30,786 nucleotides of DNA from a virus, in IMG/VR virus record IMGVR_UViG_3300031539_007116, positions 1 to 30,786 of that record, one strand, 5' to 3'. Position numbers and translations under genes: made by a program. Under the pieces are notes generated by a model. The model made no database searches, was not told the origin of the DNA, and worked only from the letters and a program-made list of their open reading frames with translations. Positions 1-6,125 of the stretch are shown in pieces. The number at the start of each line of letters is the position of its first letter. Position 1 is the stretch's first letter.

Positions 1-2
1 GC

Positions 3-539
3 AATAACCAATTAACAAGTTTTGAAGGATGCCCACAAGAAATTGGTTATGGTTTTTATTGTAGTAATAACCAAATAATAAATATTCCTAATAATTTTGA
101 TCATATTGAAAAACTTCATGGTGATATTTATTTATATAAAGACGAATATTTAAGTTTTTTTGATGGTGTTAGAAAAAAAGTAATCAAACAACGAAAACAA
201 AAAGATATAGAAATATATTATTTTGAAGATGGTGTTTGTATAAAAAAAGATGGAATATACTCGCACGGAGAAACATTAAAACAAGCAAAAGAAGACTGGA
301 TATATAAAGTATCTAATCGTGATACAAGCGAATATAAAGACATGAATTTAGATACAATTGTAACATTTGAAGAAATGATAAAAATGTATAGAACTATTAC
401 AGGTGCGTGTGGGTTTGGATGCAAGGATTTCATAAAATCAAACAAAGTAAAGAAACAAGATTATTCAATACAAGAAATTATTGATTTAACACAAAATCAA
501 TATGGAAACGAAAAGTTTGTAGAATTTTTTAAAAAATAA
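3..539 (+). CDS. Leucine-rich-repeat-like protein, 5' end cut by window edge
   Basis: The reading frame is open from the window edge and ends in TAA at 539, so only the C-terminal 178 residues are visible. The first ~40 residues look like degenerate leucine-rich repeats of the phage or surface-protein type: NNQLTSFEGCPQEIG, then FYCSNNQIINIPNNF. Each has the N-N-Q-[LI] core and a Cys/Asn ladder. The rest (roughly residues 45-178) is charged and Lys-rich, with a CGFGCKDF segment, and matches no family I recognise. An internal ATG at 342 would give only 65 residues, but the continuous upstream frame with repeat character argues against that start. LRR proteins usually bind other proteins. What this one binds cannot be read here. 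The stop lies 19 bases before nrdD, so the two are probably co-transcribed. Confidence 0.75.
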   Translation, partial: NNQLTSFEGCPQEIGYGFYCSNNQIINIPNNFDHIEKLHGDIYLYKDEYLSFFDGVRKKVIKQRKQKDIEIYYFEDGVCIKKDGIYSHGETLKQAKEDWIYKVSNRDTSEYKDMNLDTIVTFEEMIKMYRTITGACGFGCKDFIKSNKVKKQDYSIQEIIDLTQNQYGNEKFVEFFKK

Positions 540-558
540 ATAAAGATGGTGGGGTAAA

Positions 559-3500
559 ATGGAAGATAAAATAAAAGAAATTAAAGTAAAAAAGAAAAAA
601 AATAATAAAGCAGATAGTACGGATAATGTTTTATTAGTAGAAGATGAAGTTGATTATGAATTAACAGGTTTTGATAGCAATAAAATAGTCGAAGTTTTAA
701 GAGAAGAAAGCAATATAAAAAAAGATATTGCAATAGAAATTTCTCATAAAGTACAGGAGAAAATTATAAATTCTGGAATAAAAACATTATCTACAAGTTT
801 AATAAGAGAACTTGTTAATAATGAATTGTTAGATATGGGACTTTTAAAGCAGTTAGAACAACAAGACTCATACTTGATGCCTAAACATTCCATAGAAGAC
901 TTAATGTTTAATAAAAGCAACGAAAATAGCAATATAGTAGCGAATAATCCAGAAGCTGTTAATATGGCAATATCTGAAACAATATTAAAACAATATTCAC
1001 TAAACAATGTTTTCTCAAAGGAAGTTAAAGAGGCACATTTAAAGGGAAGAATACATTTGCATGACCTAGGAACACCCCAAAAAGTATACTGTTTTCCAGA
1101 TAATGAACATGTTATAATAAAGGATCTTTATAATAATATAAAATCATATTCAATGGAAAATTTATATGAATCAATAAACGAAAATGAGGTTGAGTATAAG
1201 GAAGGAATATTTAGAAAAAAAACTATTGGATACCAAATTTATGAGAAAAATAAATTTATACCACTTAATTTTGTAACAAAAATAAAAAACAACAATAAAA
1301 GAATGTTAAGTATTCAAACATTAAATGGTAAAAGCATAACATTAACAGAAAATCACTCAGTAATGGTTAAAGAAAATACTTTTAACATTCCAGAATGTAA
1401 ATACTGTAAATCTTCTAATGTTATAAGAAATGGAACAAAAAATATTAAAAAAAATAGTAGGGCTTATAAATGTAAAGATTGCAATAGACAATTTAGAAGT
1501 ATAATTGAAACATCAAATACTAATATAGTAGAAGTAAAGGCAAAGGATGTAAAAATAAATAATTTCTTAATAGAACAAAACTTTAATACAAATAACTTTA
1601 AAACACAAAAAGAAGTTTCAATTAAAGGTAAAACAATAAAATTTGACGATGATTTTTGTTATTTTTTAGGAATGTTTGTCGGGGATGGTAGTTTTAATCA
1701 TAATGATATAACAGTTACTGGGATTGAAAATATAAAAAACATTAAACAATACTTTATAGATAAAGAAATTTCATTTGGATATAATGAAGAGAAAAAATAT
1801 TTTAGAATTTATGAAAAAAGTTTTAGGGATTTTTTATTAAAAAATTTATCATTGGGGTATTATCAATATCAAAGACAATTACCAAACAATGTTTTTGAAT
1901 TATCATTAAATGAACAGTTTGCTTTAATTAATGGAGTGATAGATGCAGAAGGAACTCTTAAAAACTTTAAAGGCAATACTATAAAAAATAGTTCTACAAA
2001 TATTAATATTAGATTAACTTCAAAAGTTTTATTATCACAAATGCAAGAAATATTAACAAACAATGGAATAAAATCAAACTTGAATTATGTTGGGTTTTAT
2101 AAAAATTCAAAAATTAAAGCTAATTATCCTTTATATAGATTAACTTTTAATATATCAGAAGATAAAAAACATCTATTTTCTAAGTCTTATAAAATATCAA
2201 AACATATAGATAATAATAGTTTTATTTTCTGTGATAATAAAGTTTTTCATGACACATATTTAGTTAGAAATATTAAAGAAGTTGATTATAAAAGAGACTT
2301 TGTTTATGACATAACAACAGAAACTGGATTGTTTGCTAGTAATGGGTTGTTATTACATAATTGTGGAGCTCACTCTATTGAGTATATAAAAAAATATGGA
2401 TTAGATTTACATAATATTTCTACAAAATCCTCACCTGCAAAACATGCACATACGTTAACAGGTCATATAAACACATTCTTGGCATCTATGCAGGCATATT
2501 ATGCAGGAGCACTAGGGTTATCATATGTGAACATATCTTATGCCCCATATTTAGTTGGTATGACATATGAAGAAATGTTAAAAGAAGCACAATATTTAGT
2601 ATTTAGTTTGTCACAGAATGCCTTTTCTAGAGGTGGGCAATCAATTAAAGGATGTGAAACTATTTATGTTTACAATACAATTACGCAAAAAATAGAAATT
2701 CCAACCATAGAAGAATTTTATAATAAATTTGATAATAAGAATGATATAAATAAGTATAAAGCGATTAGTCTAAACAAAGAAACTGGTGAATGTGTTTTAT
2801 CTGATATTTATGGGGCAGTTAAACATGAAAGAAAAAATAAATTAGTAGACATTACTTGTGCTAATGGAATAAAGACAAGTGTTACTGAAGACCACAGTTT
2901 ATTTAGTATTGATAAAAATAGCAAAATAAATGAAACCAATCCAAATTCTATGCCTGAACATTTTTTAAGTCATATTAATTTTGATATTAATAAAAAAATA
3001 CCAAAAATAGATTTATTGAATTATGTTCCAAAAGAAGATATTGATGAAATTGAATATACAAATACTCATATTTGGTATAAAAAACATAAAATTGGTATAA
3101 TAAAAAGGTTTATAGATATTGATGATGATTTTGCATTATTGGCTGGCATGTATGTTGCAGATGGTGGGGAATGTGACAATTCAATAGAAATACACATATT
3201 CGAAGGTATAAAGATGAAAACCATAATCTCAAATTTATTCTTCAATGTTTTCGGTAAAAAAGCATCTATAAAAAAAAATAAAGTTACATTATCAAACAAA
3301 CTTGCAAGAATATTGTTTTGTAATTTGTTTGGAAATATAGTTTATGAAAAACAAATCCCATCTTGTATATTATTTAATAATAAACATATTGTTAAAAGTT
3401 TTATTTCTGGATATTTATCAGGGGATGGATGGGTTTGTAAAAATAGGATTGGTTGCTCTACTGTATCTAATATTTTAGCCAAGCATTTACATTTAGCATT

Positions 3501-5436
3501 TTCAAAAATAGGATGTAATGTTAGGCAAGATATTATTTATCCTAAAAAAAATATATTTATAAATAATAAATTAGTAAAAAAGAGTAAAAAACAATATAGA
3601 TTAACTATAGGAATAGATAATTTTGATAAAATAGATTTTTTACTAAAAAGGCATAATGATAAAAAAAATGAATTATTAAATAATTTTAATTCTCATAAAA
3701 TAAATAATACAAAAAATTATAATCAATTAAAATATAATTATAATCATTTAAAAATAGATATAAAAAATGTTTATAAAAGTAAAATATCATTAAAATGTTA
3801 TAAAATAAAAGAAAATAGATTAAACGAAATATATGATAAAACAAAAAAAGCTATTAAAGAATATTTATCTTATTCAACTAAAATAAATAAACAGAATATT
3901 AAGGAAGTATTTGAGGATTTATACTTATTTGATAATATTTCAAAAAATACATTACAAAACACATTTAATAGAAACTTTTGTATGAGAGATATAGAAAATG
4001 ATAAAGTATTTGAAATGGCAAAAACAATAATAAAAAACCAAATTAATTTAATGGAGACACTAATAACCAACATAGAAAAATCTATTAAATTATTACCGTT
4101 AGAAGTAATTAGTATAAATAAAAGCACTGAACAGGATGAATATGTTTATGATATTTCTGTTAGGGAACATGAAAATTTTTTATTAGGGTGTGGATTATTT
4201 GCACATAATACATTATTCACTGATTTTAATCTACATACTGGTATTCCCGAAAGTTTGAGCTGTGTTCAGGCTATTGGACAAGGAGGAGAATACACTGGGA
4301 AAACATATTTTGAATATGAAAAAGAATCGCAAATGTTCGCAAAAGCTATTATGGAAGTAGTAATGATTGGTGATAAAAATGGAAGATTGTTCGAATTTCC
4401 AAAAATAGACCTACATATAACAAAAAATAGTTTTGAACGTGAAAATGAAAAAGAATTATTAAATTTTGCTTGTGAAGTTACTAGTAAAAATGGTTCTATA
4501 TATTTTATTTTTGATAGAGATGCTATTACATTATCTTCCTGCTGTAGACTCCGCACGACATTAGATGAGAAGAATAAACAAGATATGCTTATGATTTCAA
4601 ATCCAGAACATATGAGATATTGTGGGTTTCAAAATGTAACAATAAATCTTGCACAGGCTGCATATAGAGCAGGAAAAGGAAATATACAAGAAGCAATAGA
4701 TGATATTTTAATTTCTATGGATATTGCAATGAATGCACATATACAAAAAAGAAAATTTATTCAAAAAATGTTTGACACAAAAGGATCACCTATGTATAAT
4801 GTAGGACAACCATCATGCGATGGGTTTCCATATATTGATCTTAATTCTGCATCTTACATATTTGGTGTAATAGGATTAAATGAATGTGTCCAGTTCTTAA
4901 CTGAAAAAGAATTACATGAAGATGATGAAACATTTAAAATTGGAATTAAAATTATTACAAATATGTTTTTAAAGACAAAAAAATTTACAGAAAAGTTTGG
5001 CTTAAAATGTGTAATAGAAGAATCGCCAGCAGAATCTACATCTAGGAGACTTGCTAAGGTTGATTTAAAAGAATATCCAATAAGTAAAAATTATATAAAG
5101 GGGGATGATCTTGATACATATTATTACACCAACAGTATACATTTTAATGCATCAATTGATATGCCGATAACAGAAAGAATAGAAAAACAAAGTAAATTTC
5201 ACTCATTAATTGCAGCAGGTGCAATTATACATGCTTTTGTTGGGGAAAATCTTCCTTCAAAAGAATCAATATATAATTTAGTTAAAAAAACATGGGATAA
5301 TACAAATACTGCTCAAATTGTTATATCACCAGAATTTAGTGTGTGTTCTAAATGTGGCACTATGGTAAAAGGATTGATAGATTACTGTGAAAATTGTAAT
5401 TCTGGGGATGTTGAAGGAATAGAGTATTATCAATAA
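559..5436 (+). CDS. nrdD: Anaerobic (class III) ribonucleoside-triphosphate reductase with two inteins, lacking the glycyl-radical tail
   Basis: NrdD reduces ribonucleotides to deoxyribonucleotides without oxygen, supplying dNTPs for phage replication. The 1625-residue precursor contains two inteins (residues 178-601 and 695-1217). Removing them leaves a 678-residue reductase, close to the usual NrdD length. Visible extein signatures: an ATP-cone-like region (about 36-95); HLHDLG (about 168-173); CGAHSIEYIKKYG after the first intein; SRGGQ joined to TLFTDFNLHTG across the second; the SSCCRLR motif with C1328/C1329, likely including the thiyl cysteine; FQNVTINLAQAAY; PAESTSRRLAK; and a C-terminal zinc site C1596/C1599/C1610/C1613. 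Oddly, the protein stops 12 residues after the last zinc cysteine. The RVxGY-type loop carrying the glycyl radical in this family is absent, and other frames do not restore it. The start has a GGTGGGG ribosome site. No nrdG activase gene is in the window. Confidence 0.93.
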   Translation: MEDKIKEIKVKKKKNNKADSTDNVLLVEDEVDYELTGFDSNKIVEVLREESNIKKDIAIEISHKVQEKIINSGIKTLSTSLIRELVNNELLDMGLLKQLEQQDSYLMPKHSIEDLMFNKSNENSNIVANNPEAVNMAISETILKQYSLNNVFSKEVKEAHLKGRIHLHDLGTPQKVYCFPDNEHVIIKDLYNNIKSYSMENLYESINENEVEYKEGIFRKKTIGYQIYEKNKFIPLNFVTKIKNNNKRMLSIQTLNGKSITLTENHSVMVKENTFNIPECKYCKSSNVIRNGTKNIKKNSRAYKCKDCNRQFRSIIETSNTNIVEVKAKDVKINNFLIEQNFNTNNFKTQKEVSIKGKTIKFDDDFCYFLGMFVGDGSFNHNDITVTGIENIKNIKQYFIDKEISFGYNEEKKYFRIYEKSFRDFLLKNLSLGYYQYQRQLPNNVFELSLNEQFALINGVIDAEGTLKNFKGNTIKNSSTNINIRLTSKVLLSQMQEILTNNGIKSNLNYVGFYKNSKIKANYPLYRLTFNISEDKKHLFSKSYKISKHIDNNSFIFCDNKVFHDTYLVRNIKEVDYKRDFVYDITTETGLFASNGLLLHNCGAHSIEYIKKYGLDLHNISTKSSPAKHAHTLTGHINTFLASMQAYYAGALGLSYVNISYAPYLVGMTYEEMLKEAQYLVFSLSQNAFSRGGQSIKGCETIYVYNTITQKIEIPTIEEFYNKFDNKNDINKYKAISLNKETGECVLSDIYGAVKHERKNKLVDITCANGIKTSVTEDHSLFSIDKNSKINETNPNSMPEHFLSHINFDINKKIPKIDLLNYVPKEDIDEIEYTNTHIWYKKHKIGIIKRFIDIDDDFALLAGMYVADGGECDNSIEIHIFEGIKMKTIISNLFFNVFGKKASIKKNKVTLSNKLARILFCNLFGNIVYEKQIPSCILFNNKHIVKSFISGYLSGDGWVCKNRIGCSTVSNILAKHLHLAFSKIGCNVRQDIIYPKKNIFINNKLVKKSKKQYRLTIGIDNFDKIDFLLKRHNDKKNELLNNFNSHKINNTKNYNQLKYNYNHLKIDIKNVYKSKISLKCYKIKENRLNEIYDKTKKAIKEYLSYSTKINKQNIKEVFEDLYLFDNISKNTLQNTFNRNFCMRDIENDKVFEMAKTIIKNQINLMETLITNIEKSIKLLPLEVISINKSTEQDEYVYDISVREHENFLLGCGLFAHNTLFTDFNLHTGIPESLSCVQAIGQGGEYTGKTYFEYEKESQMFAKAIMEVVMIGDKNGRLFEFPKIDLHITKNSFERENEKELLNFACEVTSKNGSIYFIFDRDAITLSSCCRLRTTLDEKNKQDMLMISNPEHMRYCGFQNVTINLAQAAYRAGKGNIQEAIDDILISMDIAMNAHIQKRKFIQKMFDTKGSPMYNVGQPSCDGFPYIDLNSASYIFGVIGLNECVQFLTEKELHEDDETFKIGIKIITNMFLKTKKFTEKFGLKCVIEESPAESTSRRLAKVDLKEYPISKNYIKGDDLDTYYYTNSIHFNASIDMPITERIEKQSKFHSLIAAGAIIHAFVGENLPSKESIYNLVKKTWDNTNTAQIVISPEFSVCSKCGTMVKGLIDYCENCNSGDVEGIEYYQ
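1090..2361 (+). other. Intein 1 in NrdD (424 aa, LAGLIDADG type, with zinc ribbon)
   Basis: Self-splicing insertion between extein VY and CGAHSIEY. It begins with Cys178 (CFPDNEHVII) and ends in LLLHN with Cys602 as the +1 nucleophile, the classical Cys1/His-Asn/Cys+1 arrangement. The block B histidine is in TENH (T263, H266). A LAGLIDADG homing endonuclease sits in the middle: FLGMFVGDG (369-377) and LINGVIDAEG (456-465). Block F is FVYDITTETGLFASNG. Between block B and the endonuclease lies a CX2C-X21-CX2C zinc ribbon (C280, C283, C305, C308) ending YKCKDCNRQF, a form common in transposases. Both catalytic acidic residues of the endonuclease motifs (D376, E464) are present, so it may be active. 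Boundaries were chosen by restoring the NrdD extein and by the splice-site residues. Confidence 0.93.
2641..4209 (+). other. Intein 2 in NrdD (523 aa, LAGLIDADG type, Ser1/Thr+1)
   Basis: Second insertion, between SRGGQ and TLFTDFNLHTG, a highly conserved NrdD strand. It begins with Ser695 (SIKGCETIYVYN) and ends GLFAHN, with Thr1218 as +1 residue. Ser1 and Thr+1 are less common than Cys but splice-competent in known inteins. Block B is VTEDH (T776, H779). Endonuclease motifs are LLAGMYVADG (860-869) and FISGYLSGDG (948-957), each with the acidic residue. Block F is YVYDISVREHENF. About 180 residues between the second endonuclease motif and block F are Lys/Asn/Ile-rich, extremely AT-rich at DNA level, and unlike the flanking extein, consistent with separate acquisition. 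An alternative start at Cys699 would leave four extra residues in the extein, so Ser695 is preferred. Confidence 0.9.
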
Positions 5437-5456
5437 AAAAAATAAAGAGGTAATGT

Positions 5457-6125
5457 ATGCAAAATATAAATAATAATGGATTTGTTTTTTATGATGAAAA
5501 AGATATTTTCAATAGAGAATATCTTATAAAAAATATATCAATTGAATTGAAAAATAAATTATTTAGATTAAATAAAGCAATTGACTTTAGGCAAATAGAA
5601 ACGTCATTATTGCAAGATAAGGAAAGTATAGATAATGAATATTTTTTAGAAAAAAATTATATATTTGAAACTAATGAGGATTTTTGTTTAAGACCAGAAA
5701 CAACAAAGGGGAGCTATAATATTGCGAAATATTTATTAAAACATTATGAAGCTAAACTTCCATTATGTGTTTGGCAATCTGGAAAATCTTTCAGAAACGA
5801 ACAAGATAAAACTTTTAAAAACATAAGATTAAAAGAATTTTATCAATTAGAATTTCAATTATTATACTCTAATACAACAAAAGCGGATTATCCAAACATA
5901 TTAAAAGAGTTTATATTTAGTTTTTATGAAAATGAATTTAGTAAATATAAAGTAGAAATGGAATTATCAGACAGATTACCTAAATATTCACTTGAAACTA
6001 CTGATATTATAATAAATGGTTTAGAAGTGTGTAGTATGTCTTTAAGGAATGACTTTGAAAATAATATAAATAATTTTGAAATTTCTATTGGATTGGATAG
6101 ATTATGTTTTTTAAAAAATAATTAA
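5457..6125 (+). CDS. Compact glycyl-tRNA synthetase-like class II catalytic-core protein
   Basis: This 222-residue protein resembles the catalytic core of dimeric bacterial/eukaryotic glycyl-tRNA synthetase. In order it has: NNGFVF (6-11), LRPETTKG (78-85), KLPLCVWQSGKSFRNE (class II motif 2, R113/E115), R124 with KEFYQLEF (126-133), a segment LEVCSMSLRNDF (189-200) that lines up with GlyRS ELEGIANRTDF, and motif 3 IGLDRL with R215. It has fewer than half the residues of a typical GlyRS (about 460), with a shortened insertion and no anticodon-binding domain. It could activate glycine or another small substrate but is unlikely to charge tRNA in the normal way alone. A ribosome site (AAAGAGG) precedes ATG 5457. 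It sits 20 bases after nrdD and 15 before dnaN, so all three are probably one transcript. Family assignment is confident; substrate and role are unknown. Confidence 0.8.
   Translation: MQNINNNGFVFYDEKDIFNREYLIKNISIELKNKLFRLNKAIDFRQIETSLLQDKESIDNEYFLEKNYIFETNEDFCLRPETTKGSYNIAKYLLKHYEAKLPLCVWQSGKSFRNEQDKTFKNIRLKEFYQLEFQLLYSNTTKADYPNILKEFIFSFYENEFSKYKVEMELSDRLPKYSLETTDIIINGLEVCSMSLRNDFENNINNFEISIGLDRLCFLKNN

Follow-up and report, generated by a model that had tools for sequence, protein, structure and literature searches.

The window analysed here, a stretch of 30,786 bases (28% GC) that constitutes the IMG/VR virus record IMGVR_UViG_3300031539_007116, encodes the catalytic chain of a class III ribonucleotide reductase, NrdD, that is interrupted by two inteins and ends before the loop that carries the glycyl radical. 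The glycyl radical is essential to class III reductases and is damaged by oxygen. Here we examine this truncated gene, together with a separate small open reading frame (ORF) in a near-identical contig that appears to supply the missing domain. The components of nrdD are the following (positions in the window; residues in amino acids, aa).

559..5436, + strand: nrdD ORF, 1625 aa, class III ribonucleotide reductase catalytic chain with two inteins, glycyl-radical loop missing
559..1089, + strand: extein 1, residues 1-177, with a weak ATP-cone, the flap-like NEN and HLHDLGTPQKVY
919-927, + strand: flap-like NEN, residues 121-123, in extein 1
1090..2361, + strand: intein 1, residues 178-601, LAGLIDADG-like, with Intein and LAGLIDADG matches; boundaries set by the splice residues
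2362..2652, + strand: extein 2, residues 602-698, PF13597 profile positions 54-157; the first residue is the conserved Cys of the YC motif
2653..4209, + strand: intein 2, residues 699-1217, PF14890 (Intein_splicing) match at 715-1217; boundaries set by the splice residues
4210..5433, + strand: extein 3, residues 1218-1625, remainder of the barrel and zinc ribbon, PF13597 profile positions 157-534
4534..4554, + strand: finger loop SSCCRLR, residues 1326-1332, with the probable thiyl-radical Cys, assigned by alignment to other NrdDs
5344..5400, + strand: four-Cys zinc ribbon CSKCG...CENCN, Cys at residues 1596, 1599, 1610 and 1613
5401..5436, + strand: final 11 residues, SGDVEGIEYYQ, and the stop; the radical loop expected after the zinc ribbon is absent

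The rest of the reductase core is intact, as a previous sequence-only reading of this DNA had held. The match of the nrdD ORF to PF13597 scores 309.5 bits (cut-off 26.2) in three stretches, the SSCCRLR finger loop with the probable thiyl Cys lines up with the CCRL of other NrdDs, the HLHD...YC motif and both Cys pairs of the zinc ribbon are present, and extein 3 matches the solved NrdD chains 8p23, 1h78 and 4coi; the ATP-cone match in extein 1 scores under the Pfam cut-off. Both inteins keep their splice residues (C178...HN601/C602 for intein 1 and C699...HN1217/T1218 for intein 2), again in agreement with the sequence-only reading, and their removal leaves a spliced extein of 682 aa.

The NrdD polypeptide itself, in contrast, does not contain the glycyl-radical loop. 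The last matched PF13597 position is 534 of 562, followed by a few residues, and the TIGR02487 match stops at 554 of 581. The chain stops at ...CSKCGTMVKGLIDYCENCNSGDVEGIEYYQ, with 12 residues beyond the final Cys, and the next ATG comes 20 bases after the nrdD stop; both distances had been reported correctly. The claim that no continuation is present in the other frames also held: a hidden Markov model (HMM) of the radical domain built from 55 viral NrdD tails detected nothing significant in any of the six frames of the window (best E = 0.23), and an Rfam search of this region matched no family. The concern that an assembly error near the stop might have removed the tail can be addressed directly. 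A scan of viral contigs recovered a separately assembled contig of 81,624 bases (G001, locus L001) that is identical or nearly so to the window where the two overlap and has the same NrdD end, which makes an assembly slip very unlikely. Exteins 2 and 3 are identical between the two nrdD genes, whereas 105 differences all fall within window positions 960-1938, a tract that spans the flank of extein 1 and the initial portion of intein 1. Given these differences and the same NrdD end, the two contigs represent different strains with a shared stop. The confinement of the 105 differences to a single tract is the pattern expected of intein homing with co-conversion.

A search of G001 with PF13597 yielded, in addition to NrdD (profile positions 1-534), one separate match, at positions 532-561, so that NrdD and this second piece together cover the NRDD profile. 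The match falls in a short ORF of the kind that had been suggested for a search near nrdD.

L001:1347-1640, same strand as nrdD: 97-aa radical-domain ORF, PF13597 positions 532-561, TIGR02487 positions 551-580

This ORF lies 4.7 kb upstream of nrdD, between an HslV-like ORF (before) and a GroES-like ORF (after), and is preceded by a clear ribosome-binding site, AAAAGGAGATATGAAATG. Window base 1 corresponds to L001:5792, which places the ORF about 4.2 kb past the left end of the window. The last third of the 97-aa protein, RIVGYFSKILNWNKSKKGELKDR, is a complete NrdD-type glycyl-radical domain that gives a gap-free alignment with the consensus RITGYlRpvdnwNdGKkaEFkdR (E = 2.2e-9 with the 55-tail HMM against six frames of G001), and NRDD is the only Pfam family matched by the protein at E <= 1; the first 60 residues show no resemblance to NrdD. 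A DNA pattern search for RVxGY missed this ORF because the motif there is RIVGY, and it was the NRDD profile search that found it.

Truncation of NrdD accompanied by a separate tail recurs in other viruses. Nearly all of the 80 viral NrdD loci surveyed have a covalent tail, and tail-less NrdDs were identified in five viral records (G001-G005). A separate tail ORF is present in four of these five (G001, G002, G004 and G005), compared to none of the 50 records with a tail-bearing NrdD (Fisher p = 1.5e-5, which serves as a guide only given the phylogenetic non-independence of viral records). In the remaining record, G003 (L042), no partner ORF was found, on a fragment that is only 22 kb long and ends shortly after nrdD. 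The partner in G002 is a 41-aa ORF that follows a dUTPase-like ORF, and that in G004 is a short ORF with an ATG overlapping the nrdD stop (ATGA), whereas in G005 and the later-found G058, the gene order is a zinc-ribbon plus radical ORF, a small redox protein and nrdD. In each of G002, G004, G005 and G058, the paired pieces tile the NRDD profile with little overlap. The split is not general because the two nearest phage records encode a full-length NrdD with a covalent tail.

Three other viral loci, L243, L245 and L250, were not counted as splits. The NrdDs of L243 and L245 at first looked tail-less but contain an in-frame TAG within the zinc ribbon (L243:9100-9330, L245:8020-8226), with the frame conserved afterwards, a sign of probable TAG recoding in the two phages. 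The NrdD-like ORF of L250 (L250:9176-10117) reads ...LRRVTGR and stops exactly at the radical-glycine codon, perhaps due to an intron insertion; an Rfam search at this locus matched no family. A 57-kb contig, L111, encodes a standalone zinc-ribbon/radical protein and no NrdD on the same contig.

When the G005-type tail was used as the query against genome contigs, it led to Methanomicrobiales archaea. In each of the 80 best loci, the zinc-ribbon/radical protein stands alone as its own ORF, and no NrdD was recognised in the examined stretch around any of these. In all 23 Methanomicrobiales genomes analysed (23/23), NrdD ends at about position 510 of the profile (range 500-513), with positions 503-562 falling to a separate ORF; in the complete chromosome of G069, from Methanoregula, the two genes are more than 1 Mb apart. 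In a broader sample of the class Methanomicrobia, 109 of the 119 genomes had NrdD matches, and 108 of these 109 combined a truncated NrdD with further NRDD matches, giving at least two among the matches listed, a count that inteins raise in some genomes; wherever a tail was among the matches listed, it was a standalone zinc-ribbon/radical protein. The single exception among the 109 is G158, with an NrdD match only. One genome, G093, encodes a fused full-length NrdD besides the truncated one. Thus, the sequence-only reading's suggestion to look for other tail-less NrdDs proved productive, in further viruses as well as in Methanomicrobia. In 6 of the 23 Methanomicrobiales genomes, the complete G069 included, neither a class I nor a class II reductase was detected. 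Since no reductase other than the two-piece enzyme was found in these genomes, and given the general need for deoxynucleotide synthesis, this enzyme should be functional there.

In the phylogenetic tree of the NrdD core, at least four changes of the tail state are needed, of which the starred branches alone force just two. The window groups with the methanogen clade (95/83), both on very long branches. In view of these long branches and the differing cut points, we do not claim a common origin of the two splits, and an independent split in the window lineage appears to be at least as likely. More generally, we consider it likely that obligate two-subunit class III reductases exist, with the glycyl radical on a separate small protein, that they arose by several splits, at no fewer than two domain boundaries, both among unrelated viruses and in an ancestor of the methanogen class Methanomicrobia, and that they are the sole reductase in some species of this class.

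For the phage itself, a two-piece class III reductase, consisting of the truncated NrdD catalytic subunit and the separate 97-aa radical protein, is by far the most plausible explanation of the sequence data, and we hold it with considerable confidence. Provision of the radical domain in trans was one of three options entertained in the sequence-only reading, and the separate ORF, the complementarity of the profile matches and the recurrence of the arrangement all support it. Several observations nevertheless weigh on the other side. The 97-aa ORF is outside the window, the contig of which does not reach this region, and its presence in the genome of the window, just past the left end, is an extrapolation from the sibling contig. 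The Pfam match of the radical domain is short and, at 27.0 bits, barely over the cut-off of 26.2; scans with this ORF alone gave no close relatives; and an AlphaFold2 model of the isolated protein is uninformative (mean pLDDT 44.5). Finally, no NrdG was found in G001, a possibly incomplete contig, and the activase may come from the host or from an unsequenced part; another phage locus does encode an NrdG (L089:14634-15389). A 78-aa radical-SAM ORF upstream of nrdD (L001:4703-4939) was rejected as NrdG because it is Cfr/RlmN-like; it resembles the first part of Cfr/RlmN, is cut short and is immediately followed by a phosphoesterase ORF.

The lack of an NrdG match in G001, along with the radical domain missing from the NrdD chain, would also fit an inactive, decaying NrdD that is kept mainly by its inteins, both of which could persist through homing, with the 97-aa ORF being a leftover fragment. 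However, about 17 of the differences between the window and L001 in extein 1 are synonymous and 3 are nonsynonymous (dN/dS 0.038, and 0.026 within the divergent tract itself), compared to a dN/dS of 0.157 for intein 1. Judging from extein 1, purifying selection on the NrdD alleles is strong, which argues against a dead gene. Furthermore, the core, the zinc ribbon and the splice residues are all intact, the 97-aa ORF is open, has its own ribosome-binding site and keeps the conserved residues of the domain, and the same architecture is fixed in methanogens in which no other reductase was detected, so that inactivation, another of the three options, seems improbable. The remaining option, that NrdD relies on another radical source, such as an unknown activase or a host subunit, while the 97-aa protein has a different role, draws on the contact between the two phage proteins being a prediction. 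Yet the only domain matched by the 97-aa ORF is the NrdD-type radical domain, over precisely those profile positions that NrdD lacks, and none of the 50 viral records with an intact NrdD has such an ORF; we regard this option as still less probable. The least probable possibility, in our assessment, is that the pieces are joined as RNA or protein, via a trans-splicing intron or a split intein, into a single mature chain. Although nrdD already contains two inteins, and the radical-loop codons are a possible insertion site in another phage (L250, as described above), the tail ORF is located upstream of nrdD and has its own start and ribosome-binding site, the next ORF begins 20 bases after nrdD, neither piece has intein splice motifs at the break, no Rfam intron family was matched, and the tail ORF of G004 starts inside the nrdD stop.

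The two-piece reductase could be expected to operate as follows. Upon removal of both inteins, NrdD would become the catalytic subunit, comprising the barrel with the thiyl cysteine and the zinc ribbon, whereas the 97-aa protein, encoded within a cluster of replication genes upstream of nrdD, would supply the glycyl-radical domain. This small protein would dock at the site normally held by the covalent radical domain, with its loop reaching into the barrel next to the cysteine of the finger loop. A radical-SAM activase of the NrdG type, probably that of the host, would then place the radical on the glycine of the 97-aa protein, after which nucleotide reduction would run as usual. Docking, activation and activity are all predictions from sequence comparison. 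In the NrdD of P. copri, the final barrel strand leads into the radical domain, which houses both the zinc site and the radical loop, the latter buried; this domain is mobile, and its movement is expected to be mostly that of a rigid body (PMC11226230). Given this layout, both cut points, before the zinc ribbon in the methanogen NrdD and between the ribbon and the radical loop in the window NrdD, look like natural joints. Activation of YfiD requires the presence of the cut enzyme (PMC8683613), and by analogy, the same safety rule, whereby activation occurs only with the partner enzyme, is plausible for the 97-aa protein.

Elsewhere in the window, a 222-aa class II aminoacyl-tRNA synthetase core is encoded directly 3' of nrdD (5457-6122), the nearest models being those of glycyl- and pyrrolysyl-tRNA synthetase, with scores far under their cut-offs. 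The first 540 bases of the window (1-540), the end of a repeat-rich ORF, have a diverged second copy (80.6%) at G001:573-1112.

The class III reductase described here appears to be dependent on a detachable radical protein. Once damaged by oxygen, such a domain could be renewed at low cost, and the reductase would be open to control through the amount of small subunit supplied. The two-piece enzyme is a natural system for the study of radical-domain docking and activation, and when a truncated NrdD is encountered, a small partner should be sought before the gene is called a pseudogene.

Among known systems, the genes-in-pieces NrdA of Aeromonas phage Aeh1 is likewise a phage reductase in two pieces that retains its function, but it belongs to class I, was split by a homing endonuclease insertion, and its pieces are adjacent. 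Class III NrdDs (PF13597/TIGR02487; T4, 1h78; P. copri, 8p23) share with the phage system the barrel, the finger-loop cysteine, the zinc ribbon and a genome-encoded NrdD-type radical domain (in the phage, on the near-identical contig G001); the difference is that this domain is the C-terminus of the same chain in the former and a separate protein in the latter. The split class II reductase NrdJa/NrdJb similarly consists of a core chain and a C-terminal chain (PMC9669993), whereas the phage enzyme is class III. In the open-access literature, with subscription papers and preprints outside the scope of the search, we found no precedent for a class III reductase whose radical domain is a separate protein. 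According to Andorfer et al., detachable radical proteins have been validated only for pyruvate formate-lyase (PFL), as two spare parts, and others may exist (PMC8683613). These two, GrcA/YfiD of E. coli and Y06I of phage T4, are, like the 97-aa protein, small separate proteins with the glycyl-radical domain of a larger enzyme (PMC8683613). The comparison with GrcA/YfiD drawn in the sequence-only reading is thus right in principle, but it fails in two respects. The 97-aa protein is NrdD-type, without a PFL-type match in Pfam, and rather than being a spare for an enzyme whose own radical domain is in place until oxygen cleaves it, it would be an obligatory part: the only NrdD in G001 lacks a radical domain of its own, so that the large chain of the phage enzyme never has one.
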